Source of the DNA: Desulfatitalea tepidiphila
Lineage (GTDB): Bacteria; Desulfobacterota; Desulfobacteria; Desulfobacterales; Desulfosarcinaceae
Direction: 5' to 3'
Length of the DNA: 64,000 bases
Assembly (NCBI RefSeq): GCF_001293685.1
Contig: NZ_BCAG01000003.1
Location: forward strand, 2,108,001 to 2,172,000
Made by a program: the position numbers and the translations under genes. Below are positions 11,201 to 58,751 of the stretch, one piece after another; positions within the stretch are counted from its first letter, which is position 1; each line of letters begins with the position of its first letter. The notes below the pieces were generated by a model. That model had not been told where the DNA came from, ran no database searches, and was given only the letters and a program-made list of their open reading frames with translations.

Positions 11201-11412
11201 TTCTAACTGGTGCCCATCCACAAATGACCAGTTTGCCCGATATCTGCGTTGCTCGAAAAATTTAATCCTCGGAATATCAAATATATGCCTGCGGTTAAAT
11301 TTTTCGAGCGCCTTGATCTCGACCAAATTTGCCTATTTGTGGACGGGCACCAACTGATATGCCATTCATTAAACCCGGCGTGGATGGGGCAGGTGACCGA
11401 TGTCACACTGTT
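11201..11412 (-). repeat. Family C palindromic element fragment, interrupted by element A1
   Basis: TTCTAACTG (11201-11209) and, after element A1, AACTGATATG followed by a segment containing CCATTCATTAAACCCGGCG (11352-11412) match the end and interior of the family C element at 42914-43072 in reverse complement. The two pieces are joined if A1 is removed. The far end of the C copy is not recognisable, so it is probably decayed. In the 572-base gap 11086-11657 the only recognised content is A1 and this C fragment. Confidence 0.6.
11208..11352 (-). repeat. Palindromic element A1 (145 bp)
   Basis: Terminal inverted repeats TGGTGCCCATCCACAAAT / ATTTGTGGACGGGCACCA (17 of 18 match) surround an inner 15-base perfect stem GCTCGAAAAATTTAA (11251-11265) / TTAAATTTTTCGAGC (11295-11309) with a 29-base loop. 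Near-identical elements of the same length occur at 33078 and 58608. No coding capacity is seen. The structure is like a MITE or other non-autonomous palindromic repeat. It is inserted in a family C remnant. Confidence 0.85.
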
Positions 11413-11657
11413 AAATACGACAAGCCGTCCGCAATGAGGCGCAAGCCGGCGGGGGCCGGCCAACGCGGCCACTATCGGTATCTTCACGAAAACCTGCCCG
11501 ACACCCATTTGGGTCGGTTAAAATTGACATCAAGGCGGAGATGTCTATAGTGACGTATCGTGAAATAGAGGATTCCCGTATACAAGCCGATACTTAAAGA
11601 CATCTCGAGTGGATATATACGGCGGCGAAGTGGTCACGGGTAACAACGTAGCGGCCA

Positions 11658-11876
11658 CTAGGAATCGGGGGGTTCCTTTCTGCTTTGGGGAAGCTTGGCC
11701 TCCTTCATCGTCGAATCCCATAAATTGGCGAGGCCTTCCTTCTCGCGCGTTCCGGTTTTTATTTTCAGCCACACGTTCAATACCAGAAGCAGCAGGTAGA
11801 AACCGGCTGCCAGAACGACGAGGGTCAGGACCATCACCATCATATTTTCTAAAATGCTTGTGACTACCTGCATCAT
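11658..11876 (-). CDS. Small single-pass membrane protein, function unknown
   Basis: A 72-residue reading frame with one strong hydrophobic helix (VMVLTLVVLAAGFYLLLLVL, about residues 13-33) followed by a charged tail (KIKTGTREKEGLANLWDSTMKEAK). The amphipathic composition and clean helix suggest a real small membrane protein. The ribosome binding site is weak, and starts at Met1, Met2, Met12 or Met14 are possible. A decayed half of element A lies directly upstream. No family recognised. Confidence 0.5.
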   Translation of the reverse strand: MMQVVTSILENMMVMVLTLVVLAAGFYLLLLVLNVWLKIKTGTREKEGLANLWDSTMKEAKLPQSRKEPPDS

Positions 11877-11891
11877 TCAACGACCCATTTC

Positions 11892-11970
11892 GTTGGTACC
11901 CATCCACAAATGGTCATTTTACGCGATATCGGCGATATGCTCAAAATTTTACCCTCGGCGTACTCGACGG
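11892..11970 (-). repeat. Half copy of palindromic element A (A4)
   Basis: TTGGTACCCATCCACAAATG, then GATATCGGCGATATGCTCAAAATTTTACCCTCGG, follow the left half of element A1 and then diverge. The second arm is missing. It looks like a decayed or one-ended copy just upstream of the flavoprotein gene. Confidence 0.6.
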
Positions 11971-12056
11971 GCCGCAGCAACACCTAATAAAGCATTCTTG
12001 CGCCTGGCTCAAGAGGCCTTCATTTTATCTATGAAACAAAGGGAGGATGCCATCCG

Positions 12057-13073
12057 ATGCTGATCGATCGCTTTTTTGAAAAAGGTCGTGCTTTTCTCGG
12101 TAGCCGCTTTCCGATCATGTGTGGTGCCATGACCTGGGTCAGTGATCCCAACCTGGTCAGCGCTATCGGCAATGCGGGCGGGTTTGGTCTTCTGGCGGCC
12201 GGCAATATGCCGGTCGACGTCCTGCGCTCGCAGATCGAGCAGACGCGGCAATTGACGCAGCAACCCTTTGGGGTGAACATCATCACGCTGGCGCCGGCCT
12301 ATCAGGATCACCTGGATCTGGCCTGCAACATGGGCTGCGAATTCATTGTCTTCGCCGGCGGCATCCCCAAGAAAAAGGAGATTCAACAAGCCAGGGAAGC
12401 TGGGGCCAAAGTCATCTGTTTTGCCTCCACGGCGCCCCTGGCGATGATGCTCATCGAACGCGGCGCCGACGCCCTGATGCTCGAAGGTTTTGAAGCGGGA
12501 GGGCATATCGGTCCCATTGCCCTATCGGTCCTGATCCAGCAAATTCTCTTCACCGTTGACAGCGTTCCGATATTTATTGCCGGTGGGATTGCAACCGGTC
12601 GCATGATGGCCCATCTGCTCATGATGGGCGCCGCTGGCATTCAAATGGGCACACGCTTCGTCATGTCCGAAGAGTGCTCGGCCCACCCTAATTTTAAAGA
12701 GACATTCAAAAAAGCCAAAGCCAAGGATGCAGTGGCCACCCCCCAATTCGACGGCCGCTTGCCGGTGATTCCGGTCCGAGCCCTTAAGAACGATGGCACC
12801 ATCGAATTCGGCAAGCTGCAGTTGGAGTTGTTGTATAAACTGGAGAACCAGTCCATGGACCGGGACGAGGCCCAGTATGAAGTCGAACGCTTCTGGGTTG
12901 GCGCCCTCAAACGGGCGGTTATCGACGGGGATGTGATCAAAGGTTCACTCATGGCTGGTCAATCGGTGGGCCTGGTCGAAGATGTCAAACCGCTTAAAAC
13001 GATCATCGATGAAATGGTCGAGCATGCCGAAGCTGAGTTGCAGCGCCTGAAAAAAGTCCTGACGCCGGAATAA
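12057..13073 (+). CDS. Nitronate monooxygenase / FabK-like flavoprotein
   Basis: A 338-residue FMN-dependent TIM-barrel protein of the 2-nitropropane dioxygenase/FabK superfamily. Family marks are FPIMCGAMTWVSDPNLVSA at the N-terminus, GNAGGFGLLAAGNMP, the VICFASTAPLAM strand, EGFEAGGHIG, and the phosphate-binding IAGGIATGRMMAHLLMMGAAG followed by GTRFVMSEE. The family includes nitronate-detoxifying oxygenases and the enoyl-ACP reductase FabK, and sequence alone does not separate them. In a probable anaerobe a reductase role is as likely as an oxygenase role. Start ATG is preceded by GGGAGG at about ten bases. It stands alone before the parA-like gene. Confidence 0.88.
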   Translation: MLIDRFFEKGRAFLGSRFPIMCGAMTWVSDPNLVSAIGNAGGFGLLAAGNMPVDVLRSQIEQTRQLTQQPFGVNIITLAPAYQDHLDLACNMGCEFIVFAGGIPKKKEIQQAREAGAKVICFASTAPLAMMLIERGADALMLEGFEAGGHIGPIALSVLIQQILFTVDSVPIFIAGGIATGRMMAHLLMMGAAGIQMGTRFVMSEECSAHPNFKETFKKAKAKDAVATPQFDGRLPVIPVRALKNDGTIEFGKLQLELLYKLENQSMDRDEAQYEVERFWVGALKRAVIDGDVIKGSLMAGQSVGLVEDVKPLKTIIDEMVEHAEAELQRLKKVLTPE

Positions 13074-13105
13074 AGAGCTTGAAATCTCGAGAGACACAGA
13101 ATAAT

Positions 13106-13135
13106 GTCCGAATAGTTATATTCTACTATTCGTAC
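13106..13135. promoter_or_regulatory. Inverted repeat upstream of the stand-alone parA
   Basis: GTCCGAATAG (13106-13115) and CTATTCGTAC (13126-13135) pair at nine of ten positions around a 10-base AT-rich centre, 25 bases before the ATG of the ParA-like gene. Its position suits an operator for autoregulation by the RHH partner, or a partition-like site. Confidence 0.4.
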
Positions 13136-13160
13136 ACCACCTGAAGAGAAAGTTCCGGCG

Positions 13161-13955
13161 ATGCGCAAAATTGCCGTAGCCATGGCCAAAGGCGGCGTTG
13201 GGAAAACCACCACCTCGGTCAATCTAGCCCATGCGTTGGCGCTCCAGGGGCAGCGCGTGCTGCTGGTCGATTGCGACACTCAGGATCAGGTGGCGAAATT
13301 TTTGGGTGTATCGCCAAAATACGGGTTGTACGAGTTCGTCACGGGCCGTGATGAACGTGGGCAACCCCTGGCTAAAATGGAGACCATTCACAAGGCGCGT
13401 GAGAATCTCTGGATCCTGGCCGGTGGCATCAAGCTGGTGGAGCTTAAACACTGGCTGGGCGAACAACCCCGCGAGCAACGTCATGCGCTGCTCAGCAAAA
13501 CGCTGGTTCCCAAGGGTGATCGCCTCGATTTCCTGATCTTCGATTGCTCGCCGGGTTGGGACATCCTCAGTGTCAACATTCTCATGGCGGTCAATGAAGT
13601 ACTCTGCCCGGTGTCCCTGCAGGCACCTGCCCTGGAAGGCCTCAAAACCTTCTTCGGCTATCTCATTTCGGCCCAGAAATTGAACAACGACCTGGCGTTG
13701 AAATATGTACTGCCCACCCTGTTCGACCGGCGGACCCGCCAGAGTTTCGATCTTTACCATAAACTCAGGCGGTTTTTTACCCGGCAGATCTGCCATCCGA
13801 TCCGTTACAACGTAAGGTTATCCGAAGCACCGGCCGTGGGGAAAACCATCTTCGAGTACGACCAGCGCGCGATCGGCGCCCAGGACTACCAAAAATTGAC
13901 CAGGAGGCTCATCGATGACGGCATCCGATCAAAACAAGTCCCCAGATTTTTTTGA
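13161..13955 (+). CDS. ParA-family ATPase (second, stand-alone)
   Basis: A 264-residue deviant-Walker ATPase: AKGGVGKTTTSVNLAHALA at residues 9-27, LLVDCDTQDQ, and Walker B FLIFDCSPGWDILS. It differs clearly from the chromosomal ParA at 6167 and is followed not by parB but by an overlapping ribbon-helix-helix gene (41-base overlap). ParA/RHH pairs drive plasmid segregation and the positioning of cellular cargoes. Nothing else here is plasmid-like, so its cargo is unknown. Confidence 0.88.
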   Translation: MRKIAVAMAKGGVGKTTTSVNLAHALALQGQRVLLVDCDTQDQVAKFLGVSPKYGLYEFVTGRDERGQPLAKMETIHKARENLWILAGGIKLVELKHWLGEQPREQRHALLSKTLVPKGDRLDFLIFDCSPGWDILSVNILMAVNEVLCPVSLQAPALEGLKTFFGYLISAQKLNNDLALKYVLPTLFDRRTRQSFDLYHKLRRFFTRQICHPIRYNVRLSEAPAVGKTIFEYDQRAIGAQDYQKLTRRLIDDGIRSKQVPRFF

Positions 13956-14214
13956 GGACCATGGTCTCGATCCGGTGACAACCGCAACCCGATACCCATC
14001 AGCTGCATCAGCACCCCCGAAACGAAAAGCCGGCTTTTATCTGTCCGAAACACTGCTCGAACGCTTCAACCGCCATTTTCACCGGATGAAACTGGCCGGC
14101 GCGCCGGTTGAGAACAAATCCGCCTTGCTGGAGCTGGCGCTGACTTTTGCACTGGAAGACCTGGAGCGCGGTGATCAGAGCAAATTGCTGCGCAGCCTGA
14201 ACAGTCGTTCGTAA
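13915..14214 (+). CDS. Ribbon-helix-helix-like partner of the stand-alone ParA
   Basis: A 99-residue protein. The first 40 residues are polar and probably disordered, followed by AGFYLSETLLERFNRHF and KSALLELALTFALEDLE, spaced like the strand and two helices of a ribbon-helix-helix DNA-binding fold. Its start lies inside the 3' end of the parA-like gene in another frame, so the two are co-translated. A likely role is a DNA- or cargo-binding adaptor and repressor of the pair. The family is assigned by pattern only. Confidence 0.7.
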   Translation: MTASDQNKSPDFFEDHGLDPVTTATRYPSAASAPPKRKAGFYLSETLLERFNRHFHRMKLAGAPVENKSALLELALTFALEDLERGDQSKLLRSLNSRS

Positions 14215-14297
14215 ATCCTTTTTCTCCTCATGCCCCAATCCCTTCGCTCGGGGTACTGAAAAGAAAAATTACCCCGTTTCATCAGGAAAGGATCGTT

Positions 14298-15395
14298 TTG
14301 AACACTGTCAACGGACATCTGGAAATCATGGATAAAGGATTCGGCTTTCTGCGCAGCATCGCGGACAATTTCCAGCCGGGTCCGGTCGACACATTTGTTC
14401 CGGCGGCCTTGATCGCCCGGCACAAATTGCGGGAGGGGGTTTACATCGAAGGCACCGGCACCAAGGGCGGGGCCAACAATACGAATCTGAAGCTCGACCG
14501 CATTGAAACCATCAACGGCATGGCCCCAGACGAATTTGCCGGGGTGGCACCCCTGCAGCAGCAAACGAGCATCAATCCCACCCAACGTTTCCTCATGACC
14601 CGTTCTGAGAGAGACCTCATGGGCATGGTGCTGGACCGCATCGTACCCATGGGACGGGGGCAGCGGGGCCTGATCATCGCACCCCCCAAAACCGGGAAAA
14701 CGACCATCCTCCAACACATGGCCAACGCTATCACGTCTGCCTACGACGACGCCATGGTGTTCGTTCTCCTGGTGGACGAGCGCCCCGAGGAGGTCACGGA
14801 CTTCAAACGAAGCGTGAAAGGCGCACAGGTCCTGGCCTCCTCCGCCGACCAAACCATCGCCCAACATCTGCGCATGACCCGTCTGGCCATGAACTGCGCC
14901 ATCCGGTGGGCCGAGATGGGGCGCGATGCTGTGGTCTTCATCGATTCCCTCACCCGCATGGCGAGGGCGTTCAACACGGAGACCCGGAGTCACGGCCGCA
15001 CCATGTCCGGCGGACTGGCCGCCAATGCCCTGGACATCCCCCGCCAGGTCTTCGGCGCAGCCCGCAACATCGAACACGGTGGCTCACTCACCATTATGGC
15101 CACCATCCTGATCGACACGGGCAGCCGCATGGACGATATCATCTATCAGGAGTTCAAAGGGACCGGCAATCTCGATCTGGTCCTGAGCCGCGAATGCGCC
15201 GAACAACGCCTGTGGCCGGCCATCGATATCAAACAATCGGGTACCCGCAAGGAAGAACTGTTGATGGAAAAGGCCGCTTATCAGGAGAGCATCGATTTGC
15301 GCCGGGCCCTGTCCAAATTCAACACCGTCAATGCCCTGGGGGCCCTTCTGGAGCATTTGAACCAGCGAGCGCCCGCCCGTCCCCGCGTTTCCTGA
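14298..15395 (+). CDS. rho: Transcription termination factor Rho, N-terminally short
   Basis: A 365-residue RNA-dependent hexameric helicase. The OB/cold-shock-like RNA-binding region (GHLEIMDKGFGFLRS... VDTFVPAALI) is at residues 5-65. The ATPase core has the P-loop APPKTGKTTILQH, Walker B VVFIDSLTRMARAFN, the GRTMSGGLAANAL Q-loop region, and an ending that includes GTGNLDLVLSRECAEQRLWP. Typical Rho proteins have 410-430 residues. The missing piece is the N-terminal helical subdomain that precedes the OB fold. The start is TTG with AAAGGA five bases upstream. Whether it is the only Rho in the genome cannot be seen here. Confidence 0.93.
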   Translation: MNTVNGHLEIMDKGFGFLRSIADNFQPGPVDTFVPAALIARHKLREGVYIEGTGTKGGANNTNLKLDRIETINGMAPDEFAGVAPLQQQTSINPTQRFLMTRSERDLMGMVLDRIVPMGRGQRGLIIAPPKTGKTTILQHMANAITSAYDDAMVFVLLVDERPEEVTDFKRSVKGAQVLASSADQTIAQHLRMTRLAMNCAIRWAEMGRDAVVFIDSLTRMARAFNTETRSHGRTMSGGLAANALDIPRQVFGAARNIEHGGSLTIMATILIDTGSRMDDIIYQEFKGTGNLDLVLSRECAEQRLWPAIDIKQSGTRKEELLMEKAAYQESIDLRRALSKFNTVNALGALLEHLNQRAPARPRVS

Positions 15396-15518
15396 AGCGT
15401 CCCCGCCGTTGCCTCGCTCCCATGGCCCGAAATCGTATTTGAACCAGTCAGTTGCCGTTTCCTTTCGTTGACAGGGATGCCGGCTTTTGCCATAGTCTTT
15501 GCAAAGGGGAGAATTTCC

Positions 15519-17966
15519 ATGACAGGACGTGTCACCACAAAACGCCCGGATTCAAACCCAATGGAGATGAAACCAGCCATCCCTCCCGATCATACGGACC
15601 AAGAGGCAGCCGCCCCTCTCCTTACGCCAAACACACCGACCAGCAACGATTTGAACGAGGCCCCCGTCACCCCTCAACGGGAAAGCGTTGCCATCGATTA
15701 CCGACGCATGCTGGAAAACTCAGGGGACGGCTATTTCGAAGTCGACCTGTCCGGCAATTTCACACGCATCAATGACGCTGCCTGTCGTTTTATCGGGAGA
15801 ACCCGCGAAGAGTCCATCGGTCTGAACTATAGGGACTATATGCGTCCCGATGAAGCCCAGCGCATTCTTCATATCTACCAGGAAGTCTACCAGACCGGCC
15901 AGCCATCCGAGTTGATGGAATACAATATTATCCGCAAGGACGGCACAATCGCCACCCATCAAACCGTCGTCACCCTGTTGCGTGATGTCAGCGGCAACCC
16001 CCTTGGCTTTTGCGGTATCGTGCGCGACCTCACCCGACAAAAAGCGATGGAGCGAGCGCTGCGCGAAAGCGAGGAGAGTTACCAGCGGGTGCTGGAATTG
16101 GCGCCCGATGCCATTGCCATCAACGATGCCCGCACGTCGAAATACATTCAAGTCAACACCGCCTTTTGCCAGCACACCGGTTACCGTCCCGAAGAGATCA
16201 TTGGCCGAACGCCCATCGAATTGAATTTATACTTAGATCCCGGGGATGATCAACGTATTAAAAGACTTCTCATCAACGAGGGTAAAATCGACGGACTCGA
16301 ACTGCGATACCAAAAAAAGTCCGGAGAGCAGTTCGAAGACCTGGTTTCCGCGAGAATGATCCGTTTCAAAGGCAAAACCTGCTCGCTGTTTGTCGCTACC
16401 GGCATCACGCCGCTCAAGCAGGCCCAGAAGGCGCTTTGCGAGAGCGAAAAGCGTTATCGGGAAATACTCGAGGCGGCGCCGGATGCGATCTGCCTCACCA
16501 CCCTGTCCGACGGCCGATATGTGGAGGCCAACAGCGAGTTTTACCGGCGAACCGGCTACACCCCCTCGGAGACCATCGGGTTCACGTCCACAGATCTGAA
16601 CCTCTACGTCAATCCTGGAGACCGGCAGCTGTTCATAGACACACTTCAATCCAAGGGGCAGGTGGACGCATTCGAACTGCCGGTGCGTTACAAAGACGGC
16701 ACCATATCAGAACAATTGTGGTCGGCCCGGATCATCGAGCATGGCGGTCAGCAGTGTCTGCTGGTCATCGCCCGCCCCATCGACGACATTAAAGCCGCAC
16801 AGCGGGCGGTTGTGGAAAGCGAAGAGAGCTATCGTCGAATCATGGAGCTGGCACCGGACATGATCGTCATTACCCGCCAGGCCGACGGGCGAATCGTGGC
16901 GGCAAATGACGCCTTTTGCGCGCGCACCGGTTTCAGCAGAAACGAGCTGATCGGCCACACCCCCATCGAATTGGGGTTCTACACCGATCCGGATAACCGC
17001 AGGCGCTGGATGGAAGCGCTTAGACGCGACGGCAAAGTGCAAGGCATCGAGCTGCAATTCATCAACCGGGCCGGTAAGGTTCATGACGATCTCTTTTCGG
17101 CACAATACATCCGCTTCAAGGGCGAGGACTGTGTTTTAGCGGTCATCACCAGTATCACCCAACTGAAAAATAACCAACGGGAGCTGGAGCACTATCGGCG
17201 CGACCTGGAACAAATCATCGCGGAACGCACCAAAGCCTTGGAAGCGGCCCAGGCCGAACTGGTCAAACGTGAAAAATTGGCGGTCCTCGGCCAGCTCACG
17301 GCCACGGTCAGCCACGAATTGCGTAACCCGTTGGGCGTCATCCGCTCGTCGAACTACTACCTGCAGAGTAAAAACAGAGATAAAAGCCAAAAATCGGAGA
17401 AGCATTTTCGCCGCATCGACGAACAGGTGACATTGTGCGATACCATCGTGGCCGAGTTGCTGGAATACACGCGAGGGCGCAGCATATGGGTCGCCAAGCA
17501 ACCCATGGCGCCATGGATGACCGAGGTCGTGGAACAACTGCAGGAAACCAAGGGTGTCGATATTGCGCTGACCATCCCCGATGATCTGCCTGACCTCCAC
17601 CACGACAGGGAGAAGATGCGGCGCGTGCTGATCAACGTGCTGGACAACGCGGTCCAAGCCGTTCAGGAAAAGATGAAAGAGATGCAAAAACGCACCGAGT
17701 GGTATCGTCCGGCCATATCGGTCAGAACTGAAACCGTCGATAATGAGGTGACGATTTGTATCACGGACAACGGCATCGGCATGAATGAAGAGACTCGCCG
17801 ACGCGCTTTTGAGCCCCTCTTCACCACTCGGGCACGGGGCACGGGTATCGGCCTGGCCAATGTAAAAAAAATTGTCGAGGAGCATGGCGGCCGGATCGTA
17901 TTGACGAGCCGCACGGACCAGGGGACAGAAATGAAGATCGTCCTGCCTTGCGTACGTGAAACCTGA
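15519..17966 (+). CDS. Multi-PAS sensor histidine kinase
   Basis: An 815-residue cytoplasmic-looking kinase with no clear membrane segment. Four PAS modules (roughly residues 45-165, 175-295, 300-420, 425-550) are followed by a coiled linker (LEHYRRDLEQIIAERTKALEAAQAELVKREK), a HisKA domain with the H-box [19 protein letters not shown], and a HATPase with N-box INVLDNAVQAV, DNGIGM and [15 protein letters not shown] 15519 has AGGGGAG seven bases upstream. An in-frame upstream ATG at 15468 has none. It is a close paralogue of the next, broken gene. The cognate regulators are likely the receiver proteins downstream. Ligand unknown. Confidence 0.93.
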   Translation: MTGRVTTKRPDSNPMEMKPAIPPDHTDQEAAAPLLTPNTPTSNDLNEAPVTPQRESVAIDYRRMLENSGDGYFEVDLSGNFTRINDAACRFIGRTREESIGLNYRDYMRPDEAQRILHIYQEVYQTGQPSELMEYNIIRKDGTIATHQTVVTLLRDVSGNPLGFCGIVRDLTRQKAMERALRESEESYQRVLELAPDAIAINDARTSKYIQVNTAFCQHTGYRPEEIIGRTPIELNLYLDPGDDQRIKRLLINEGKIDGLELRYQKKSGEQFEDLVSARMIRFKGKTCSLFVATGITPLKQAQKALCESEKRYREILEAAPDAICLTTLSDGRYVEANSEFYRRTGYTPSETIGFTSTDLNLYVNPGDRQLFIDTLQSKGQVDAFELPVRYKDGTISEQLWSARIIEHGGQQCLLVIARPIDDIKAAQRAVVESEESYRRIMELAPDMIVITRQADGRIVAANDAFCARTGFSRNELIGHTPIELGFYTDPDNRRRWMEALRRDGKVQGIELQFINRAGKVHDDLFSAQYIRFKGEDCVLAVITSITQLKNNQRELEHYRRDLEQIIAERTKALEAAQAELVKREKLAVLGQLTATVSHELRNPLGVIRSSNYYLQSKNRDKSQKSEKHFRRIDEQVTLCDTIVAELLEYTRGRSIWVAKQPMAPWMTEVVEQLQETKGVDIALTIPDDLPDLHHDREKMRRVLINVLDNAVQAVQEKMKEMQKRTEWYRPAISVRTETVDNEVTICITDNGIGMNEETRRRAFEPLFTTRARGTGIGLANVKKIVEEHGGRIVLTSRTDQGTEMKIVLPCVRET

Positions 17967-18017
17967 TGGTTGTCAGAGGACCCAGACCGCAGTTGACGCA
18001 AATGGAAAAGGGTTGGC

Positions 18018-19256: not shown

Positions 19257-19310
19257 ACCGCAGCCGATCCCATTTTTTTAAATGACCTGCAAACCGGCCG
19301 ATTTATCGAT

Positions 19311-20372
19311 GTGAATCAGGCCGCCTGCCGACATCTGGGATACGACAAGGCTGAATTCGCCAGCATCTCGATCGCCGATATCGGCGAACCGCCCTGCGCG
19401 TACCCGGTCACCCATTCTTGCCATCCTCCGACCGGGAGCAAGCCGATGTTCTTCGAGACATCGCATGTGCGAAAAGACGGTTCCAGGGCCGTCGTTGAGG
19501 TCAGCAGCCAGGTAATGGTGCATAAAGGCAAAAAGACGCTGCTCAGCATTGCCCGCGACGTGACCCGCCGTAAAAAGGCCGAGCAGGAGCTTGCCCGGTA
19601 TCATGAAAACCTGGAGCAGATGGTGGCCGAGCGGACGCGGGAACTGGAAGCGGCCCAGGATGAATTGGTCAAGCGTGAAAAACTGGCCGTGCTCGGACAA
19701 CTGACGGCAACCGTCAGCCACGAACTGAGAAATCCCCTGGGCGTCATCCGTTCGTCCAATTTTTACTTACAAAAAAGAATGAAGACCGAAGACGAAAAAG
19801 CCAGGAAGCATTTCCAGCGCATCGAGGATCAAATCACCTTGTGTGAGGCGATCGTCGCCGACCTGCTCGAATATACCCGTGGTCGTCAGGCTTCGATTGT
19901 CAAACAGGAGATTTCCCCGTGGCTGGAACAGGTGGTGGAGCAGGTCGAGGAGCAGGAGGGTATCCCCATCGACCTTGAACTCGCCGGAGCGCTGCCGCCG
20001 GTCCCTCATGATCCGGAGAAGATGCGGCGGGTCCTGATCAATCTCCTGGTGAATGCCGTGCAAGCGGTCAAATCCCGCTCCGAGGCGGCGGATAACGAGG
20101 CGTCGACCTATGAACCGCGCATTGGTGTGAAGTCTTTGATGCGCGATGGCCAATTGGCTATTGAGGTGTCGGACAATGGCATCGGCATGGATGAGGAGAC
20201 GCAGCGCCGCGCCTTCGAGCCCCTGTTTACCACGCGCGCACGCGGTACGGGTATCGGCCTGGCCAATGTCAAAAAAATCATCGAAGAACACGGTGGCCTT
20301 ATTACGATGGAGAGCCGGCCGGGACAAGGCACGAAATTCTCTCTGCTCTTGCCATATACTTCCGGTCATTGA
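19311..20372 (+). CDS. Histidine kinase C-terminal part (downstream half of the broken gene)
   Basis: Same frame as the preceding fragment; the continuous open region begins right after the TAA at 19256. It holds the rest of PAS4, a coiled linker, an H-box [20 protein letters not shown]-box [17 protein letters not shown] and [12 protein letters not shown]. The first possible start is a GTG at 19311 inside the PAS domain with no ribosome binding site, so independent expression is doubtful. Restored, the gene 18018-20372 would encode 784 residues with the architecture of the kinase at 15519. Treat the two fragments as one disrupted gene unless read-through is shown. Confidence 0.75.
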
Positions 20373-20391
20373 ACAGTTATGAGGAGGCGAC

Positions 20392-31105: not shown

Positions 31106-31135
31106 AGTGCCCGATCCTCACCACTGCCAAACCTT

Positions 31136-31260
31136 GACGACACCGTAAACAGTCCAATATCTGCGTTATGCTCATCCCGTCGTCCTCGCGGCGTACGACC
31201 AGTACGCCTCAGGACACGGAATTTCGCGCGCCTGGATCTTGAACCGTTTACGGCGCCGTC
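31136..31260 (-). repeat. Palindromic element B1 (125 bp)
   Basis: The ends are GACGACACCGTAAACAG and its near inverse CGTTTACGGCGCCGTC. The inner hairpin is GGCGTACGACCAGTACGCC. The arms carry CCAATATCTGCGTTATGCTC and GCGCGCCTGGATCTTGAAC. It matches element B2 at 54252 in opposite orientation and equal length. Its end overlaps the last codons and stop of cbiD. Confidence 0.82.
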
Positions 31261-32369
31261 TGGCAACGGCTTTTTTCGAATCCATCAAACCTTACCTGCC
31301 CTTGAAAATCGAAGATGACCGCCCTGACCTTCAGCCGTCCGGCGGCAAAACCCGCCGCCGTCCGGATCAACTCGGATCCCACCCGGGCAATCAAGTCCGG
31401 GTGATCGTCGGCGAACAGGTCGAAGGCCTCCCGCGCCGTATTGGCGCGGACCACCCGACGTGCCAGATCCAGATCCCCGGTCGTCTCGACCGTCCAGCGC
31501 CCCAGCCGCTCTAATGTCAACCGGGCCGTACGGGCATGGGTGTGGGGCAGTCCCATGGCCATTTTCAGGGCCTTTCCTAAAAAAACCGCCAGGGTGACCT
31601 GCTCCAACCCCTGGTCGGCGGCCATCTCCAGGCCGTCGGCAAAATAGTCGCCGATCTGCACGAAGGCGTACGCCGGCCGATGCGGCCACAGTTGCTGGGC
31701 GAATCGTTCGCTGCGCCGGCCCGTGGTCATCACCGCCTCTGTCAATCCGCTGGTCCGCGCCACCGAAACGGCCGCGCGAATGGTGGCCGTATATGCCTCG
31801 TGAGAGAGCGGCCGCACGATGCCGGTGGTCCCCAGGATCGATATGCCGCCGATGATCCCAAGCCTTTCGTTGAGCGTATGCCGGGCCAATTCCTCTCCCC
31901 TGGGTATGAAAATCTCGACCTCGGCATGGCCGCAGACACCCGCGGCCGCCATACTGTCGAGCGCCGCCGCGCGAATCATCGCAAGCGGTACAGGGTTGAT
32001 GGCCGCGTCGCCCACCGGCACCTCCAGGCCCGGCCGGGTGACCCGTCCCACACCGGTTCCCCCTTTCACGGTCACCGCAGGCGTCGTTGGGCCGGGATGC
32101 CACGCCACCCGTGCGCCGATCTCGGCCCCGTGCGTGATGTCCGGATCGTCACCGGCATCCTTGATCACCGTACAGACGGCCGAGCCGGCATCCGGTCGGT
32201 GACAGGCATGCACCGTGATCTGAAGCGTCTCTCCGGTCGGCAGACCGATGGGCACCCTTTGTGGGCAAAAGCCCTGCAGCAGGCAGCCCATGGCCGCTTT
32301 CACCGCAGCGGCCGCGGCCACACCGGTCGTGAAACCGCAACGCAGCCGTTTGCCACTCCCGGTATGCAT
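31248..32369 (-). CDS. cbiD: Cobalt-precorrin-5B C1-methyltransferase CbiD
   Basis: A 373-residue methyltransferase of the anaerobic pathway. It has RCGFTTGVAAAAAVKAAM at the N-terminus, VIKDAGDDPDITHGAEIGA, GGTGVGRVTRPGLEVPVG, AINPVPLAMI and GGISILGTTGIVRPLS. Its presence with CbiG and CbiK marks the cobalt-early route. The last four or five residues and the stop codon fall inside palindromic element B1, so the C-terminus may have been remodelled by that insertion. It starts three bases after cbiC. Confidence 0.95.
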   Translation of the reverse strand: MHTGSGKRLRCGFTTGVAAAAAVKAAMGCLLQGFCPQRVPIGLPTGETLQITVHACHRPDAGSAVCTVIKDAGDDPDITHGAEIGARVAWHPGPTTPAVTVKGGTGVGRVTRPGLEVPVGDAAINPVPLAMIRAAALDSMAAAGVCGHAEVEIFIPRGEELARHTLNERLGIIGGISILGTTGIVRPLSHEAYTATIRAAVSVARTSGLTEAVMTTGRRSERFAQQLWPHRPAYAFVQIGDYFADGLEMAADQGLEQVTLAVFLGKALKMAMGLPHTHARTARLTLERLGRWTVETTGDLDLARRVVRANTAREAFDLFADDHPDLIARVGSELIRTAAGFAAGRLKVRAVIFDFQGQVRFDGFEKSRCQTAP

Positions 32370-33077: not shown

Positions 33078-33222
33078 TAGTGTCCGTTCACAAATAGGCA
33101 AATTTGGTTGAGATAAAGGCGCACGAAAAATTTAACCGCAGGCATATGACGGATATTCCGAGGATTAAATTTTTCGTGCAACGCCGATATCGGGCAAATT
33201 GGACATTTGTGGATGGACACTA
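33078..33222 (+). repeat. Palindromic element A2 (145 bp)
   Basis: Ends TAGTGTCCGTTCACAAAT / ATTTGTGGATGGACACTA. Inner 15-base perfect stem GCACGAAAAATTTAA (33121-33135) / TTAAATTTTTCGTGC (33165-33179) with a 29-base loop. It has the same length and plan as A1, but the third pair of the stem is changed on both sides. It sits between the small ORF after cbiA and cbiC. Confidence 0.87.
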
Positions 33223-40666: not shown

Positions 40667-40744
40667 ACCGTTTTTTATCCCTGAATGGAGCCCTCCACCC
40701 CCTTGCCACGAGGGGTCGAGTCGATCGATGATGTTCTACGATGG

Positions 40745-40920
40745 TCAAAGCAGGTCTTCCGGCTTCCGGATTGTCCTACCGGCTGCGCCTTCCCATCCTT
40801 ACGGACAGTGGCATGATGCAGCTTTCGTCCCCGGTTACGGCGGCGGGTCCGCGACGGATTCTCACCGTCTTCCCTTTTAAGGCCAAGGGCCGCTTCGATG
40901 ACAGGTTTGCTACAATATCT
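40745..40920 (-). promoter_or_regulatory. Cobalamin (B12) riboswitch
   Basis: The minus strand shows the conserved order of the B12 aptamer: AAAAGGGAAGACGGTGAGAA, TCCGTCGCGGACCCGCC, GTAACCGGGGACGAAAGC, the B12 box GCCACTG (40806-40812), GGATGGGAAGGCGC, and GGAAGCCGGAAGACCTGC. With the terminator at 40630 it should switch off cbiK and the downstream cluster when adenosylcobalamin is high. A TTGACT at 40931-40936 (minus) is a possible -35. The 505-base gap 40527-41031 otherwise shows nothing. Confidence 0.95.
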
Positions 40921-50096: not shown

Positions 50097-50107
50097 CACC
50101 CATCCAT

Positions 50108-50135
50108 CCATAAGCGGCCAATTGGCCGCTTATGG
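50108..50135. repeat. 28-base perfect palindrome between nikK and nikL
   Basis: A 14-base sequence starting CCATAAGCGG is followed immediately by its exact complement ending CCGCTTATGG, centred on AATT. It lies 12 bases after nikK. It can form a strong hairpin in the mRNA or bind a dimeric regulator. No T-tract. Confidence 0.6.
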
Positions 50136-50190
50136 AGGATACTGACAGCAAAGCAATTGGTCAAAGCATCTGCCACAAGGGAGGAGCGAC

Positions 50191-50822: not shown

Positions 50823-50825
50823 GAC

Positions 50826-52365: not shown

Positions 52366-52392
52366 CCGCCCGGATGAATAAAGAAGATACCC

Positions 52393-54201
52393 ATGCATGA
52401 ACTGGCCCACACCGCAGCACCGCTCGACATCCCATCCCCATTGTTCCGCGTGCGGGACCTCTCCTATCGGTATGCGAACGGTACCGTGGCCCTGTCGGAT
52501 ATCCATCTGGATATCGCGGCCGGTGACCGAGTTGCGCTGGTCGGGCAGAACGGCTCCGGCAAAACGACTCTGATCAAGCAATTGTGCGGTTTGCTGGCGC
52601 CATCCCGCGGCAACGTGTCTTACCGGGGTCAATCTCTCGAAGGAGACCACCTGGATCGCAGCCGCCTGGAGATCGGCCTTCTGTTCCAGGATCCCGACGA
52701 CCAGCTCTTCGGTCACACGGTGTTGGACGACGCCGCCTTCGGCCCCCTGAACCAGGGTCTCGCCCGGGAGACGGCGCAGCAGGCAGCCCGGCTGGCCCTG
52801 CAGCGCGTCTTCCTGGATGACAAGATCTACAAAGCCCCCCACCATCTGAGTTTCGGACAGAAAAAGCGCGCCGCGCTGGCCGGTCTTCTGGCCATGCGGC
52901 CTCGCGTGCTGCTGCTCGACGAACCCACGGCCAATCTCGATCCCCGGCAGGAAGAAGTTTTCCTCGACCTGCTCAAAGGCTTCGATGGCACGTTGGTGTG
53001 CGTCAGCCACGACCTGTTGTTTCTCTACGAGCTGTGCCGCCGGGCAGTGGTCATGGAAAATGGGTGCATCGAACATGACTACGCCATGGACGATCTGGTC
53101 TCCCAGCGCGAAGAATTGCGCGCCCACGGTCTCGATTTTTCTTTTCGATTGGTGGTCAATGCTTCGACCGAAACATCGGTTGCCGACGGTCCGACCTGTG
53201 CGACCAAGGACGACGACTTCCATTCGGAGAGCGGTGCCGCGCCCATGGTCGAGATGCACGATTACAATTTTCGCTACCCGGACGGTACCCGGGCGTTAAA
53301 GCACATTGATATCGCCATTTCATCCGGCGATCGAATTGCTGTGGTCGGAGAAAACGGGGCCGGCAAAACCACCCTTCTCGCCTGCCTTCTGGGTCTTCAG
53401 CAAGGAGAGGGAACCTATCTTTTCGAGGGAGATCCGGTCAAGCGCAAGAAACGCAAGGAGTTATGGCGAAAGGTGGGGATGGTTTTTCAGGACAGCGCCG
53501 ATCAGCTCTTTTGCCCCAGCGTCGAGGAAGAAATTGCATTCGGGCTGCAGCAGATGGGCTATTCCAAATCCCTAATCCGAACGCGCATCGAGGAAGCACT
53601 TGCCATGGTGCATCTGGAGGGTTTCGAAACGCGTGTGCCCCTGCACATGTCCGGCGGTGAGCGCAAACGCCTGGCCCTGGCCTGCGTGCTGGCCATGACC
53701 CCTAAACTGCTGATTCTCGATGAACCCACCGCCGGACTGGACCCCCGGGGAGAGGAGCTGCTGCTCACCATTCTGCGGGAACTCGATGCCACCCTCCTGC
53801 TTGTGAGTCACGACATCTTCTTCGTCCGGGCCCTGACCTGCCGGACCCTGGTCATGCATCAAGGGCAGATCATCGAAGATCTACCGACGGAATCGTTCCT
53901 GCAGGATCGGCGTCTCGGGAATCTCAACGGCCTCGCCTTTGCCTTCCGGCAGCGCGGCGGCGACGCCATCCGAGCCCTGCAACACGAACATGAGCACCAT
54001 TATCCCCACCGCCATCTGCATTCTCATCCGCATCGGCACGGAGAGATCGTCCACGAACACCTGCATGAGCATGCCCACGAGCACCCCCATCGAATCGTCC
54101 ACAGCCATCCCGGAGATGCGCAGGACCACGACCATCGGCCGCGCCGATTGCAAGCTCACGACCACCCGGACCATGATAACGATCCGGATCACCATCCGTA
54201 G
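52393..54201 (+). CDS. nikO: NikO: fused double ABC ATPase with histidine-rich tail
   Basis: 602 residues with two ECF-type ATPase domains. The first (about 15-235) has LVGQNGSGKTTLIKQL, LLFQDPDDQLFGHTV, LSFGQKKRAALAGLL and LLLDEPTANLDP. The second (about 285-515) has VVGENGAGKTTLLACL, VFQDSADQLFCPSV, MSGGERKRLALACVL and LILDEPTAGLDP. A tail of 72 residues contains 26 histidines (for example HRHLHSHPHRHG), likely a nickel store or sensor on the cytoplasmic side. Fusion of the two ATPases makes it a self-contained NikO pair. Confidence 0.93.
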   Translation: MHELAHTAAPLDIPSPLFRVRDLSYRYANGTVALSDIHLDIAAGDRVALVGQNGSGKTTLIKQLCGLLAPSRGNVSYRGQSLEGDHLDRSRLEIGLLFQDPDDQLFGHTVLDDAAFGPLNQGLARETAQQAARLALQRVFLDDKIYKAPHHLSFGQKKRAALAGLLAMRPRVLLLDEPTANLDPRQEEVFLDLLKGFDGTLVCVSHDLLFLYELCRRAVVMENGCIEHDYAMDDLVSQREELRAHGLDFSFRLVVNASTETSVADGPTCATKDDDFHSESGAAPMVEMHDYNFRYPDGTRALKHIDIAISSGDRIAVVGENGAGKTTLLACLLGLQQGEGTYLFEGDPVKRKKRKELWRKVGMVFQDSADQLFCPSVEEEIAFGLQQMGYSKSLIRTRIEEALAMVHLEGFETRVPLHMSGGERKRLALACVLAMTPKLLILDEPTAGLDPRGEELLLTILRELDATLLLVSHDIFFVRALTCRTLVMHQGQIIEDLPTESFLQDRRLGNLNGLAFAFRQRGGDAIRALQHEHEHHYPHRHLHSHPHRHGEIVHEHLHEHAHEHPHRIVHSHPGDAQDHDHRPRRLQAHDHPDHDNDPDHHP

Positions 54202-54216
54202 TTATCATGATGAACC

Positions 54217-54250
54217 GGACGACGACGCAAACCGTACGACGACGCAAACC
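54217..54250. repeat. Two tandem 17-base units beside element B2
   Basis: GGACGACGACGCAAACC and GTACGACGACGCAAACC are adjacent and differ at one base. They follow the nikO stop and touch the left end of palindromic element B2. Confidence 0.7.
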
Positions 54251-54251
54251 G

Positions 54252-54376
54252 GACGGCGCTGTAAGAAGTTCAAGATCAAGGCGCGCGAAATCCCGCGTCC
54301 TGAGGCGTACTGGTCGTACGCCGCAAGGACCGCGGGATGAGCGCAACGCAGATATTGGGCTTCTTACGGCGCCGTC
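54252..54376 (+). repeat. Palindromic element B2 (125 bp)
   Basis: Ends GACGGCGCTGTAAGAAG / CTTCTTACGGCGCCGTC (16 of 17 match inverted). Arms with GATCAAGGCGCGCGAAA and GCAACGCAGATATTGGGC. Core hairpin GGCGTACTGGTCGTACGCC. Same plan and length as B1 at 31136 (opposite orientation). Its right end overlaps the last bases of the thioesterase stop codon. Confidence 0.85.
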
Positions 54377-54815
54377 ATCGTTTGGGAATGATCATGTAGG
54401 TGGCCAACCCCTTGGCGATACGGTCGCCGGTTTCGGTGGTCACATCCACCTCGCCCAGCGCGGTCCTGCTGCCCTTCTGGACGATTCGGGCTTCGGCCAG
54501 GAGCGCACCTTGGACAAACGGTCTGAGATAATTGAGCTTCATCTCTATGGTCACCATGGTCTCGGTGCGTTCGATCAACCCGATCAAGGCCATGGCCACG
54601 GCTGCATCGGCGGCTGAAAAAATCGCGCCACCGTGGGCGATACCGTCGGCGTGGGTCAATTTCTTCTCGAAGGGCAACCGAACCAGAGCCCAGCCCTTTT
54701 TGACATCGGCCAGGGTCATGCCCAACAGGTGCCAGTAGGGATTGACCGTCCGGGCCTTTTCCATCAGCGCCCGCTTGAAGTTGGGCGTCAATTCTTCATA
54801 GGACATGGATTCCAT
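54375..54815 (-). CDS. PaaI-family hotdog thioesterase
   Basis: 146 residues. Hotdog fold with the PaaI signature ADGIAHGGAIFSAADAAVAMAL (His-Gly-Gly motif and catalytic Asp region) and MKLNYLRPFVQGALLAEARIVQKGSRTALGEVDV. It hydrolyses acyl- or aryl-CoA thioesters; substrate unknown. ATG 54815 has GAGG upstream; an ATG at 54806 is possible. The stop codon is next to palindromic element B2. Confidence 0.9.
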   Translation of the reverse strand: MESMSYEELTPNFKRALMEKARTVNPYWHLLGMTLADVKKGWALVRLPFEKKLTHADGIAHGGAIFSAADAAVAMALIGLIERTETMVTIEMKLNYLRPFVQGALLAEARIVQKGSRTALGEVDVTTETGDRIAKGLATYMIIPKR

Positions 54816-55012
54816 CGCCGGAAAACCTCACGCATGACATCGAAATAAAAAAACAGGAGCATGGGCGCACCATAACGGAACCGGATCCCCCTGTCGAGGG
54901 CCTGAATTTTTGCGTCCGATGCTCGATCCTTGAATTGACCCTCGGTCCGCTCTGTTATACCTTCCCGTCGACCAATCGATAAACCATTTAACCGGGTCGA
55001 TGCCGAGATCAA

Positions 55013-56353
55013 ATGAGCACGTCACCTACCACCATCGCGCCGACATTCGGCCGTCTGAATCGATTCTTCTGGCCCCTTGCCCTGCAGTCCGCATCCCAAG
55101 GGTTGACCTATCCCCTGGTCGCCATGGTGGCGTCCCGTTCCGAAGGCGGCCCATTGAACCTGGCCGGTCTGGCCCAATCCAACACCCTCATGTTTCTCCT
55201 GGGCACCCTGGGCTTCGGGCTGGTGGCCACGGGCCTGGTGTTTGGCAAGGACCGTGAAGGGTTTATGCAATTTCGAGGCATTACCCTGCGTCTGGGGTGG
55301 GTGGTGGTGATCCTGCAATCGGCGCTGTGCCTGCCGCCGGTCGCCGGATGGCTCTTCGAAGACCTGATCGGTTTGCCGCAGACCATCGCGCATCCGGCCC
55401 ATGTCACGCTGCTGGCCAGTGTGCCGTTGCAGTTTCTCTTTTTTATGCGGATCCCCTATCAGGTGAGCATGTACAACGGGCTGGCATCGATACGGGCCAG
55501 CTCGGCGACGATCATGCGCATTGCCATAACGGCGTTGCTGGCGCCGCTCTTCTGCCGCTGGGGGGCGGTGGGCCCGATCTGGGCCGTGGTGTGCCTCACC
55601 CTGCCGGTGGCCCTGGAAGTGGCGGCCTCGGCCGTTCTGGCCGCGCCATTCATAAAACAGCTCCGATCGTCCGACGAAAAGCCGCCGACCAAGCGGACGC
55701 TGTTCTTTTTCAACCTGCCCCTCTCCATCAGCGGCTACCTCTTAACCGTGTCGGCCATCCTGGTGGGCGCTTTCATCGCGCGAGCCGCCGAACCTGAGCG
55801 CATGCTGCCGGCCTATTATCTGGCCCTCGGCCTGGCCGCCCCGGCCGCCTTTGGGGCCACGCGACTGCAGGAGGTGGTGCTCAGCTTTCATCCGGCCGAC
55901 GGCAAGGACCGCCGCACCCTGCCGTTTGCCCTCGGTGCCGGCCTGTTCCTGGGGGTGCTGCCCCTGCTCTTCACCCTGCCCGGCCTGGCGCAATGGTATT
56001 ATGTCGGCCTGCAGAAACTCGATCCAGCCGATCTGTCCATCGTTCGCACGGCCGCCTACGGCCTGGCCCTGTTTCCGCTATGCGTGGCCCTGCGCGCCCA
56101 AGGGGAAGGGCTGGCCGGGTTCGCGCGCAAGCCCAAAATCATCATCGTCGCTCAAGGCGCCTATTTGCTGACCATCACGGCGGTAGGCTGCGCGGCCCTG
56201 TGGGCGGCGGTGCCGGGCAATCTCATCGGCGCCATGGGCCTGTGCATCGCCAACATCGTCTCGACCTTGACCGTCCGGCTGTTGCTCAACAAAATCGGCA
56301 AGCATGAGCTTCCCGTGCCGCCGACCATCACCGCCGTGGGCCAGATCCGATAA
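55013..56353 (+). CDS. Multi-pass membrane protein, MOP/MATE-like
   Basis: 446 residues with roughly 12 hydrophobic helices and few loops. The N-terminal QSASQGLTYPLVAMVASRSEGGPLNLAGLAQSN segment and the internal two-fold look (a second half beginning LPLSISGYLLTVSAILVGAF) resemble flippases of the MOP exporter superfamily (MATE or ankylosis-like). No signature fixes the substrate. It stands alone, with the thioesterase gene divergent and the radical SAM gene convergent. Confidence 0.7.
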   Translation: MSTSPTTIAPTFGRLNRFFWPLALQSASQGLTYPLVAMVASRSEGGPLNLAGLAQSNTLMFLLGTLGFGLVATGLVFGKDREGFMQFRGITLRLGWVVVILQSALCLPPVAGWLFEDLIGLPQTIAHPAHVTLLASVPLQFLFFMRIPYQVSMYNGLASIRASSATIMRIAITALLAPLFCRWGAVGPIWAVVCLTLPVALEVAASAVLAAPFIKQLRSSDEKPPTKRTLFFFNLPLSISGYLLTVSAILVGAFIARAAEPERMLPAYYLALGLAAPAAFGATRLQEVVLSFHPADGKDRRTLPFALGAGLFLGVLPLLFTLPGLAQWYYVGLQKLDPADLSIVRTAAYGLALFPLCVALRAQGEGLAGFARKPKIIIVAQGAYLLTITAVGCAALWAAVPGNLIGAMGLCIANIVSTLTVRLLLNKIGKHELPVPPTITAVGQIR

Positions 56354-56369
56354 ACACCCACTTCGTCTG

Positions 56370-57341
56370 TTAGTGACGATCGGTGGCACGCGTGCCGAAT
56401 TTTCTGACGTAGAATCGGTGGCCCTGGTAGAGCGTCTCCATCAGATCGCCTCTTGCGATCATTTTATCGACGATGTCCCAGGAAGCTTCCGCCCTGGATA
56501 ACAGGCGCCGCACCGCCTCTTCCCGCATCGGATGGACGGCGGTAATGCTCAAGAGATCTTTTTCGACATCGCCGCTGAAAGCGAAAGCATTGCCCTCGTA
56601 ACCGATCAGGTACTCGGCCCATTTGACGTTTTCCGCAAATATGCGATAGGCGCGATGGAGGGTCTCCTCGTCTGGTCCGCGAGCCCAATCGACCGCCGGT
56701 GGCCGCGTCGGCACCCCCAGGTAGGCGGTCCAGGGCTGCAGGCGCTTGAGGAAACCGGCGATGCCCACCAGGCTTTCGTCGTGATCGTTTACGCCGTGTA
56801 CCAGCATGGTCTCGGTCGCCAGCTTGCCGGTAAAATTGGCAGCGAAGGTCTGCATTCCGTCAAGAATGTCCGAAAGACGCAATTCCTTGTGGGGACGATC
56901 GATCCGGCGCCAGATCTTCTCTTCCGCGGCATCGACTTTCATCGACACCCAATCGGCCTTGGCCAGATCCCGGCGCACGTCGTCGCGCCAGAGAAGCGAG
57001 CTGTTGGTGATCACACCGATGGAGATTCCCAAAGGCTTGAGCAGGTCGATGGTCTTTCCCAGCGCCTCATCCAAAGTCGGCTCACCGTCCGGGACAAAGG
57101 CGAGATAGTCGATCTTCTCGGAGACCGCCACGGCATGGGACACCTTTTCTTGAACTTCCCGGAAGATATCTTCGGGTTTGAAAAAGGCTTGGCGCTGGAT
57201 CTGCATCCGGCTGGTGCCCCCTACCTGGCAGTAGATACAAGCATAGCTGCAGGTCTTGGCGGGGATGTTGTTGATCCCCAGGCTTCGTCCCAGCCGCCGT
57301 GAGGGAACCGGGCCATAAGCATAGTGGTAAGCCGGGATCAT
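56370..57341 (-). CDS. Radical SAM protein
   Basis: 323 residues. CSYACIYC (CX3CX2C) supplies the [4Fe-4S] cluster, preceded by YGPVPSRRLGRSLGINNIP, the N-terminus of the COG0731-type radical SAM group. FVPDGEPTLDEALG, a GVITNSSLL strand and TETMLVHGVNDHDE follow. The C-terminal 80 residues look like a winged helix. The ATG overlaps the DUF89 stop as ATGA, so the two are coupled. Substrate unknown. Confidence 0.88.
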   Translation of the reverse strand: MIPAYHYAYGPVPSRRLGRSLGINNIPAKTCSYACIYCQVGGTSRMQIQRQAFFKPEDIFREVQEKVSHAVAVSEKIDYLAFVPDGEPTLDEALGKTIDLLKPLGISIGVITNSSLLWRDDVRRDLAKADWVSMKVDAAEEKIWRRIDRPHKELRLSDILDGMQTFAANFTGKLATETMLVHGVNDHDESLVGIAGFLKRLQPWTAYLGVPTRPPAVDWARGPDEETLHRAYRIFAENVKWAEYLIGYEGNAFAFSGDVEKDLLSITAVHPMREEAVRRLLSRAEASWDIVDKMIARGDLMETLYQGHRFYVRKFGTRATDRH

Positions 57342-58231
57342 GCACCACCTTTCTGTTCAGTCGTTGTTGGGAGGGCTTCGATCCTGGGTGTTGTCAGCAC
57401 ATGTGTGCCTACGGGAAAACCCACGTGGGACGCGATGACAGGGCACTTCACCTTGAACAGGAAAAAGATGGTGCAGACCTCCTGGCTCAAGGTCTCGAAA
57501 TTGCCCTGCCCCTTGGCAATGATCAAATCCGCTGATTCAAAGTGGCGCCGAAACGTTTCACTGCAGTCGTGCAGTAGCGTACCCGGTGCATCGGACCCGT
57601 TGTCGATCACGCGGACCATGCCGGTCAGCCCGACCGCCTCTGCGTCGGCAAGCGTCGCATCGTTGATGACAGGGCCACCTCGCACGGCCACCGTCACCCT
57701 TTCAGGACCCAACTGGGCGATCAACAGGCGATCGAAGACAATCTCCCCCGCGTTGTCTGCCAGAAAAAGGATCGAATGGGCCTCGTCTGCCGCCTTCCTG
57801 AATTCTTCCAAAGACCCCTGAATCGACGCGGTCATGGCCTGCCCAACCGCCACCGCCAGGTCAGCCGGGCTGACGCTGCTGTTCACGCCCATATCGATGA
57901 CATTGCCGGCCAAGGCCAGGCGAAGGGCCATGTCCATGGGGTCCCGCGCCTTTGCGACCGATGCCTCGAGATCGGGCAGCAACGCCAGGGCCATTCGATT
58001 GCCCTGATCTTTGACCGCCCGGTAGGGATCTTTGACGTCCGTCAATTCCCGCAGCCGCCGGTGAATCCGCTGCCCGACCACCGGCGGCGGCGCACCCAAA
58101 TCCATACGGGCCGTCCATGCCATCAGCTCGCGCATGATCTGCTCTTGCACCATGGGACCGCTCGAAATCATCCTGGCCGCATCCAGGGCCTGGCGAAGAA
58201 AACAGACCAAACAATCCAGCGACGTATTCAT
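57338..58231 (-). CDS. DUF89 / ARMT1-like metal-dependent phosphatase family protein
   Basis: 297 residues. N-terminal CLVCFLRQALDAAR with a CxxC pair as in the prokaryotic DUF89 subgroup, FLADNAGEIVFDRLLI (metal-binding Asp-Asn), VRGGPVINDATLADA, and IIAKGQGNFETL. Characterised relatives are damage-control phosphatases that remove harmful sugar-phosphate or cofactor by-products. The substrate of this one is unknown, and its coupling to a radical SAM gene hints at cofactor or tRNA-base metabolism. Confidence 0.85.
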   Translation of the reverse strand: MNTSLDCLVCFLRQALDAARMISSGPMVQEQIMRELMAWTARMDLGAPPPVVGQRIHRRLRELTDVKDPYRAVKDQGNRMALALLPDLEASVAKARDPMDMALRLALAGNVIDMGVNSSVSPADLAVAVGQAMTASIQGSLEEFRKAADEAHSILFLADNAGEIVFDRLLIAQLGPERVTVAVRGGPVINDATLADAEAVGLTGMVRVIDNGSDAPGTLLHDCSETFRRHFESADLIIAKGQGNFETLSQEVCTIFFLFKVKCPVIASHVGFPVGTHVLTTPRIEALPTTTEQKGGA

Positions 58232-58607
58232 TCAGATGGCTTTCTAATCATTTCTATTCTATGAAACCCGGCGCAACCGGAGCGTTGAGTGACATCATGG
58301 TCTCATGTTTTTAGGTGATTAAGCACAGCCCGTGCCATGATAAATCGCGACCCATGGCCGAGCAAACCCTGTTTGAATGGGGGGGAAACCGATTCCATGC
58401 GCGTGCCCTATCGTCGCAAATATGAAACGGCCTGTTTGATAGTGTCGCATGCCTGCTATAGTATACCGGTCAATGAGCATTCGCCTCACCGTGATTAGGG
58501 CTTCAACCCGGCGCAACATAAGGATATTCAAAATCATCCGATCTTTCTTTCGCCCCGGCACAGCCTTTGCTGTTGAACAGGGCCAACAGGAGTGAACCGA
58601 TATAACC

Positions 58608-58751
58608 GAGTGCCCATACAGAAATAGGCAAATTGGGTCGAAATCAAGGCGTGCGAAAAATTTAACCGCAGGCATATAGAGGATATTCCGAGGATTAAAT
58701 TTTGAGCAGAAGCAGATATCTGGCCAATTGGCCATTTGTGGATGGACACTC
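58608..58751 (+). repeat. Palindromic element A3 (144 bp)
   Basis: Ends GAGTGCCCATACAGAAAT / ATTTGTGGATGGACACTC. Arms with GTCGAAATCAAGGCGTGCG and GCAGATATCTGGCCAATTGG. The inner stem is partly decayed (the right arm lacks TTCG). Same orientation as A2. It fills the right end of the 537-base gap 58232-58768; nothing is seen in the rest of that gap. Confidence 0.82.

Follow-up and report, generated by a model that had tools for sequence, protein, structure and literature searches.

Among the closest described systems, ERIC/IRU, Correia/NEMIS and RUP are single families with one type of terminal repeat each, and REPIN/RAYT systems consist of hairpins dispersed in high copy that lack a target duplication and are mobilised by a Y1 transposase. 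Here we describe two families of palindromic elements, A and B, in a 64,000-nucleotide stretch of the 5.6-Mb genome of Desulfatitalea tepidiphila (the window; G000:C3:2108001-2172000, where G000 is the window's genome), in which one internal loop is common to many families with different ends. By the features tested, A and B are miniature inverted-repeat transposable elements (MITEs), unusual in that their inside is better conserved than their ends. We put a probability of roughly 0.7 on the reading that A and B are palindromic MITEs of one superfamily, with a conserved single-stranded fold, formed as RNA or as single-stranded DNA, and ends that have been changed repeatedly. The elements of the window, numbered from its first letter, are as follows.

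11210-11350, minus strand: A element, 141 bp; flanking 6-mers CAGTTG / CAGTTA, 5/6 alike
11302-11318, minus strand: left arm in A (5' strand of loop 1), arm pattern match
11235-11250, minus strand: right arm in A (3' strand of loop 1), arm pattern match
11896-11968, minus strand: degenerate and partial A copy (right half)
31136-31286, minus strand: B element, 151 bp, with an extra left end outside the hairpin
31129-31135, minus strand: 7-bp target duplication AAGGTTT of this B copy, right side in element orientation
31287-31293, minus strand: 7-bp target duplication AAGGTTT of this B copy, left side in element orientation
31222-31238, minus strand: left arm in B, arm pattern match
31152-31167, minus strand: right arm in B, arm pattern match
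33080-33220, plus strand: A element, 141 bp; flanks AGTTTA / TAATTA, target duplication not recognisable
33112-33128, plus strand: left arm in A, arm pattern match
33180-33195, plus strand: right arm in A, arm pattern match
54252-54376, plus strand: hairpin part of a B element, with no recognisable outer left end
54274-54290, plus strand: left arm in B, arm pattern match
54345-54360, plus strand: right arm in B, arm pattern match
58610-58749, plus strand: divergent A element, 140 bp; flanking 6-mers AACCGA / TCCCGA, 4/6 alike
58642-58658, plus strand: left arm in A, arm pattern match
58709-58724, plus strand: right arm in A, arm pattern match

The arms that a first-pass annotation of the letters alone had reported as common to A and B are real. 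The left arm has 7 matches in the window (at most three mismatches) where 1.12 are expected, the right arm has 8 where 1.15 are expected, and five of each lie within elements. The same five elements are recovered at E <= 1.1e-14 by R1, a covariance model trained on 20 diverse elements; after these, at E 0.0088 or worse, R1 matches in the window two of the elements again on their reverse strands and one chance-level place. Across the genome the left-arm pattern occurs exactly at 72 places, and the two arms, 40-70 bases apart, at 81, with no match to the reversed control in either case; arm counts, genome places and empty controls together rule out chance similarity. Each arm supplies one strand of a single conserved internal loop, CAAGGCG / CAACGCNG, with the formula 5'-C AAGGCG / CAACGC N G-3', flanked by co-varying stems.

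A begins with GTGYCC and ends with GGRCAC as terminal inverted repeats. B has the terminal inverted repeats GATG...CGTC and runs from GATGG to CGTC, its extra left end outside the hairpin being GATGG...GTAAAAAGTC. The lengths first assigned, 145 bp for A and 125 bp for B, need revision: A is 141 bp (140 bp in one window copy), lying between 6-bp duplications, and B is 151 bp at 31136-31286, the figure of 125 bp being that of its hairpin, with the extra left end missed. The A copies at 11.2 and 58.6 kb do have the GAGC given at the start of the right arm, and it is frequent in relatives, but most A copies displayed read TTCGNGC at this place, which pairs with the left arm. Upstream of the B copy at 54.2 kb, tandem GGACGACGACGCAAACC-like repeats (54200-54251) stand in place of the usual outer left end, and at G000:C4:160967-161011 two A tips face each other within 45 bases, perhaps a remnant of tips without a core.

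A survey of 100 fetched loci plus the window gave 108 match pieces (59 A and 49 B, some partial or duplicated), with both ends present in 53 A copies. Among duplication lengths of 2 to 10 bp, A shows a clear peak only at 6 bp, where 10 of the 53 are exact and 0.29 would be expected; for B, 7 of 42 are exact at 7 bp against 0.05 expected, its ends and duplication length having been picked from 1512 scanned combinations, with 7 the longest length among the 15 best. The B copy at 31136-31286 has the exact 7-bp duplication AAGGTTT. At C1:116143 an A element is nested in the core of a B element, and once A and one TACTTA are taken out the remainder can be aligned with a second B copy, L066, over 158 bases with no gap. 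Because removal of the nested copy restores the empty site, A is mobile with a 6-bp duplication. Both families have target-site duplications and are therefore non-autonomous transposons: they carry terminal inverted repeats and a duplication of fixed length (6 bp for A, about 7 bp for B), occur in many copies (the 81 two-arm places), and at 141 and 151 bp are too short for a transposase. The consensus of the A target (11204-11356 and other A copies) ends in TA, which together with the GTG of the element makes a TAG stop codon at either end.

Target duplications were also counted in related families. In G111, which has the same core type as A, 8 of 9 copies have an exact 4-bp duplication (shuffled mean 2.7, p 0.00025), 3 of the 12 fetched copies having been dropped when the text rule did not find both ends; by eye these three have no clear exact repeat. 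A weaker case is G243, with 5 of 15 copies exact at 6 bp (0.86 expected) and a mean match of 0.678 versus 0.594, one of the 16 fetched copies being unmatched by the rule.

The superfamily reaches far beyond this genome. R1 has matches in 228 of 291 genomes of the class (E <= 0.001), at least 9 of the 228 having supplied training sequences, and in 93 of 297 genomes of the phylum (E <= 0.0001). Reversing the letters of that alignment while keeping its structure gives a model with 0 matches among the 291 class genomes, an empty control that has no positive control itself. Within the order, the strict two-arm pattern is found in 14 of 291 genomes. A named scan gave at least 119 stretches, mainly from Desulfobacterales, Syntrophales and other Deltaproteobacteria among the 80 listed; two outlying stretches may be misbinned or chance, and one of these two, on a Sphingomonadaceae contig (L283), was not confirmed by R1. 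In a cross-genome pattern search the matches that read as real were in G000, G059, G359, G323 and G376, and many single matches were set aside as lying within open frames and looking like chance, the reversed control also matching several genomes. This breadth rules out clonal copies of A and B as the only carriers: the covariance search of relatives that the first-pass annotation had proposed finds the arms with many other tips. Plasmids gave no match to the one A copy searched. A loose pattern, some of whose matches could be due to chance, has 7 matching stretches in viral contigs. Among the papers listed by literature searches we found nothing on such a superfamily by title or start of abstract, and of five papers containing one of six module strings none is relevant by title.

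The fold was scored in the alpha core, the type found in A, with the inner loop CC NNA GG / CC GA GG. In an alignment of 40 of the 55 elements listed (15 omitted as chance, beta, short or with an insert), 93.9% of cells at 35 pairs are paired, compared with 76.9% when shuffled and at most 44.3% when slid; both sides have changed in 206 cells (55 shuffled), and 26 pairs show such changes (17.8 shuffled). RNAalifold by itself predicts nearly the same structure as the hand-drawn alpha fold. When alpha and beta elements are scored together (89 of 96 non-redundant elements scorable), the second position from the loop forms a pair in 87 of 89, using four Watson-Crick types (44.6 when shuffled), the third does so in 66 of 89 (40.6 when shuffled), and the fourth is G.A or A.G in 64 of 89. 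The invariance of CAAGG/AACGC comes partly from how the sequences were selected; the co-variation beside the loop does not. The strands are also unequal. The CAAGGCG strand is more stable than its complement in 88 of 95 elements by RNA parameters and in 91 of 95 by DNA parameters, and on it G.T outnumbers A.C by 34:15 in outer stems and 31:16 in upper stems, where other mismatches number 35 and 95, respectively. In the G059 element L158 the strands of the inner loop lie, by eye, in the opposite order to A; because of this reversal, L158 suggests that the loop matters as a fold.

The ends, by contrast with the loop, vary widely. The loop sits behind about ten kinds of tip, some of which rest on a single element; examples are GTGYCCRTCC, GTAAAAAG, GTGCNTGAACGAAAA, GAGRCCTTTGAAAA, GAAGCYRTYTCAAAA, GGCCNTTGGAAAAT, GGGTATCTCTAAAAATT, CTCGATGCTCAAG, GCAGCCTGTNNAAAAACG, GGGCGGCNCCAGG and TTGAAAGRCC. 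One tip type, GAAGCCATYTCAAAA, found on loop-bearing G203 elements, matches the ends of an insertion sequence elsewhere in the window's genome.

G000:C6:179580-180524: IS5-family insertion sequence, ends TAGAAGCCATTTCAAAACC

This insertion sequence shares its ends with the tips of the G203 elements but differs from them in coding for an IS5-type transposase (NF033580), in two overlapping frames, and in lacking the loop within the 70 bases read at each end. A match to IS5-family ends was seen for the GAAGCC tip type and, among the 20 PF01609 loci, none for A or B. Since families with one loop differ in duplication length (4, 6 and about 7 bp), different transposases are pointed to. These lengths and the IS5-end match mean that a single transposase reading the arms, one form of the mechanism first offered for the sharing, does not explain it and is unlikely.

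Tips and cores are not equally free. The beta core, as in B, reads GGCGTAC...GTACGCCGC. Crude text rules applied to 178 elements, of which 35 stay unassigned and three tip classes are one element each, file the T1 tips as 31 alpha, 0 beta and 2 other, the T2 tips (n = 70) as 57 beta, 7 alpha and 6 other, the T9 tips as 5 beta and 1 other, and the T10 tips as 3 beta. At least one of the T2 alphas is a rule error, since L233, like L219 with unassigned tips, was filed alpha and is beta on reading; the other T2 alphas are taken from the rule. Two core lineages thus follow tip groups: tips turn over widely on one core, and cores are not freely mixed. The modular design proposed in the first-pass annotation therefore stands as far as arms with many tips are concerned and fails for free exchange of cores. 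Small variants were also seen. Two G181 elements, L123 and L126, share a small hairpin insert (TTATCCGCC..GGCGG) at one position of the right arm, and L129 carries a similar one; the G359 elements L136, L157 and L160 have a right stem with an extra 25-30 bases or so, which the G359 copy L447 lacks.

The linkage of core lineages to tip groups is what descent predicts, and it speaks for the strongest competing account, in which one old palindromic MITE lineage has diversified and its loops persist by descent and arm-to-arm repair, without a function. The bursts within this genome also look recent, full-length A copies being 87-99% identical to the query used, and because both the pattern and the R1 searches pick out sequences with the loop, it looks better conserved than it is. 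Across the phylum, however, stems change freely with compensation and the loop stays fixed, and mismatches such as G.A, which repair between the arms would be expected to remove, persist in both orders. We regard descent without function as unlikely.

Under the superfamily reading that we prefer, element ends would follow whichever transposase is at hand and would have been replaced several times, and the loop would be kept by selection on the single-stranded fold of the CAAGGCG strand, as RNA or single-stranded DNA. Such selection would arise because a protein or other partner reads the fold. In a palindrome both arms change together, and insertion of one element into another, seen once here, is one route to new ends. 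The presence of an ancient folded core across the phylum, in palindromes with different tips, suggests that the core itself does something. More tentatively, the loop module might itself be an independent structured element, made of RNA or single-stranded DNA. Selfish or serving the host, such a fold would have spread through the phylum by taking on the ends of unrelated transposons again and again, and many MITE families would be its vehicles.

Several points weigh against the superfamily reading. The 35 pairs of the alpha fold were drawn by hand on the same sequences in which they were then counted. The elements are related and the trials not independent, so that the strand counts and the wobble counts (p 0.009 for outer stems, p 0.04 for upper stems) overstate significance, and the strand difference itself stems partly from the conserved G.A mismatches. 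Repair of the palindrome by template switching could produce paired changes without selection. No ends of A or B bracket any of the 20 PF01609 transposase loci (1.5-kb flanks; other transposase families not searched), and neither a transcript nor a protein nor a transposase belonging to A or B turned up. Nor is a clear orientation preference seen: of the co-directional neighbours at 77 scanned loci, chance pattern hits included, 13 are '++' and 16 '--', and in 43 of 70 cases the neighbour to the right is on the opposite strand. Replication strands are likewise even (51 vs 45, p 0.61) over 96 positions, an incomplete list compiled by hand from several searches, two of which scored 40 candidates each. 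Such a lack of orientation and replication bias is what one would more readily expect of a fold without function on one strand. The replication count leaves out contig C7, a copy near the skew switch at 1.55 Mb, the partial copy C1:451548 and chance matches, and keeps the truncated copy at C3:1828 kb; contig C3 alone gives 31 vs 20. With 100 of 205 tip places listed, an autonomous partner of A or B with imperfect ends is possible.

The even split leaves a replication-strand bias of the kind seen in single-strand transposition unsupported, and it bears on a second alternative, that the arms bind one transposase or an HUH/RAYT-like single-strand enzyme and the tips matter little. The strand-specific fold would suit such an enzyme, since IS200/IS605 and REP elements are known cases of hairpin recognition. 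Nevertheless, duplications of 4, 6 and about 7 bp occur in families that share the loop, and HUH enzymes are not known to make such duplications; with the 51 vs 45 count this makes a single enzyme very unlikely. Least probable of all is a cis-acting RNA hairpin tuning neighbouring mRNAs, as proposed for ERIC and NEMIS: the fold is very stable and many elements lie close to gene ends, but co-directional neighbours show no orientation bias (13 vs 16) and the one 2.5-kb stretch scanned (30.9-33.4 kb) has no excess of promoters or terminators. Where a gene to the right of an element in relatives runs on the opposite strand, the median distance from its end to the element is 10 bases.

Rfam at gathering score matches only two features in the window, a cobalamin riboswitch (40732-40912, minus strand, 113 bits) and a tRNA, tRNA-Ala (GGC) lying at 1790-1865; at E <= 1, five loci gave three matches, none on an element. 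Elsewhere in the window, blocks at 17157-17926 and 19563-20332, 2406 bases apart and 71-77% identical, are probably paralogous genes, and G-rich repeats at 59129-59254, five overlapping 42-base copies, would code for a GGxGRGMGG-like stretch.

MITEs are usually taken as passive leftovers with insides of no consequence. Here the inside is the best conserved part, the ends change, and the elements occur phylum-wide, often in high copy. Why MITEs retain a palindromic fold thereby becomes directly testable, and the pattern points to a partner that reads it. The nearest relatives in form are known from other bacteria. REPIN/RAYT systems share hairpins and high copy number with the elements described here, which differ in having target duplications and long terminal repeats; the duplications set them apart from that group, no search for a RAYT having been made. 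The ERIC/IRU, Correia/NEMIS and RUP families, as far as the part of the source consulted describes them, are likewise repeats of about 100-200 bp, each folding as a whole into a long stem-loop, with terminal repeats and target duplications (PMC2229807). From the same broad bacterial group, the portions consulted of two reports on Geobacter multicopy nucleotide sequences describe palindromic intergenic repeats, one family of 24 having the centre GRCGTAGCGCTGCTACGCC, which resembles the cores of L224 and L238; compared by description, they differ in that they are presented there as short RNAs by prediction, and neither terminal repeats nor a loop nor a superfamily is mentioned (PMC2700814, PMC2996986). 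The Chunjie MITE of Geobacter uraniireducens, also of this broad group, has conserved ends and direct repeats and, in the portion of its description consulted, differs in its length of 178-235 bp (PMC10969869).

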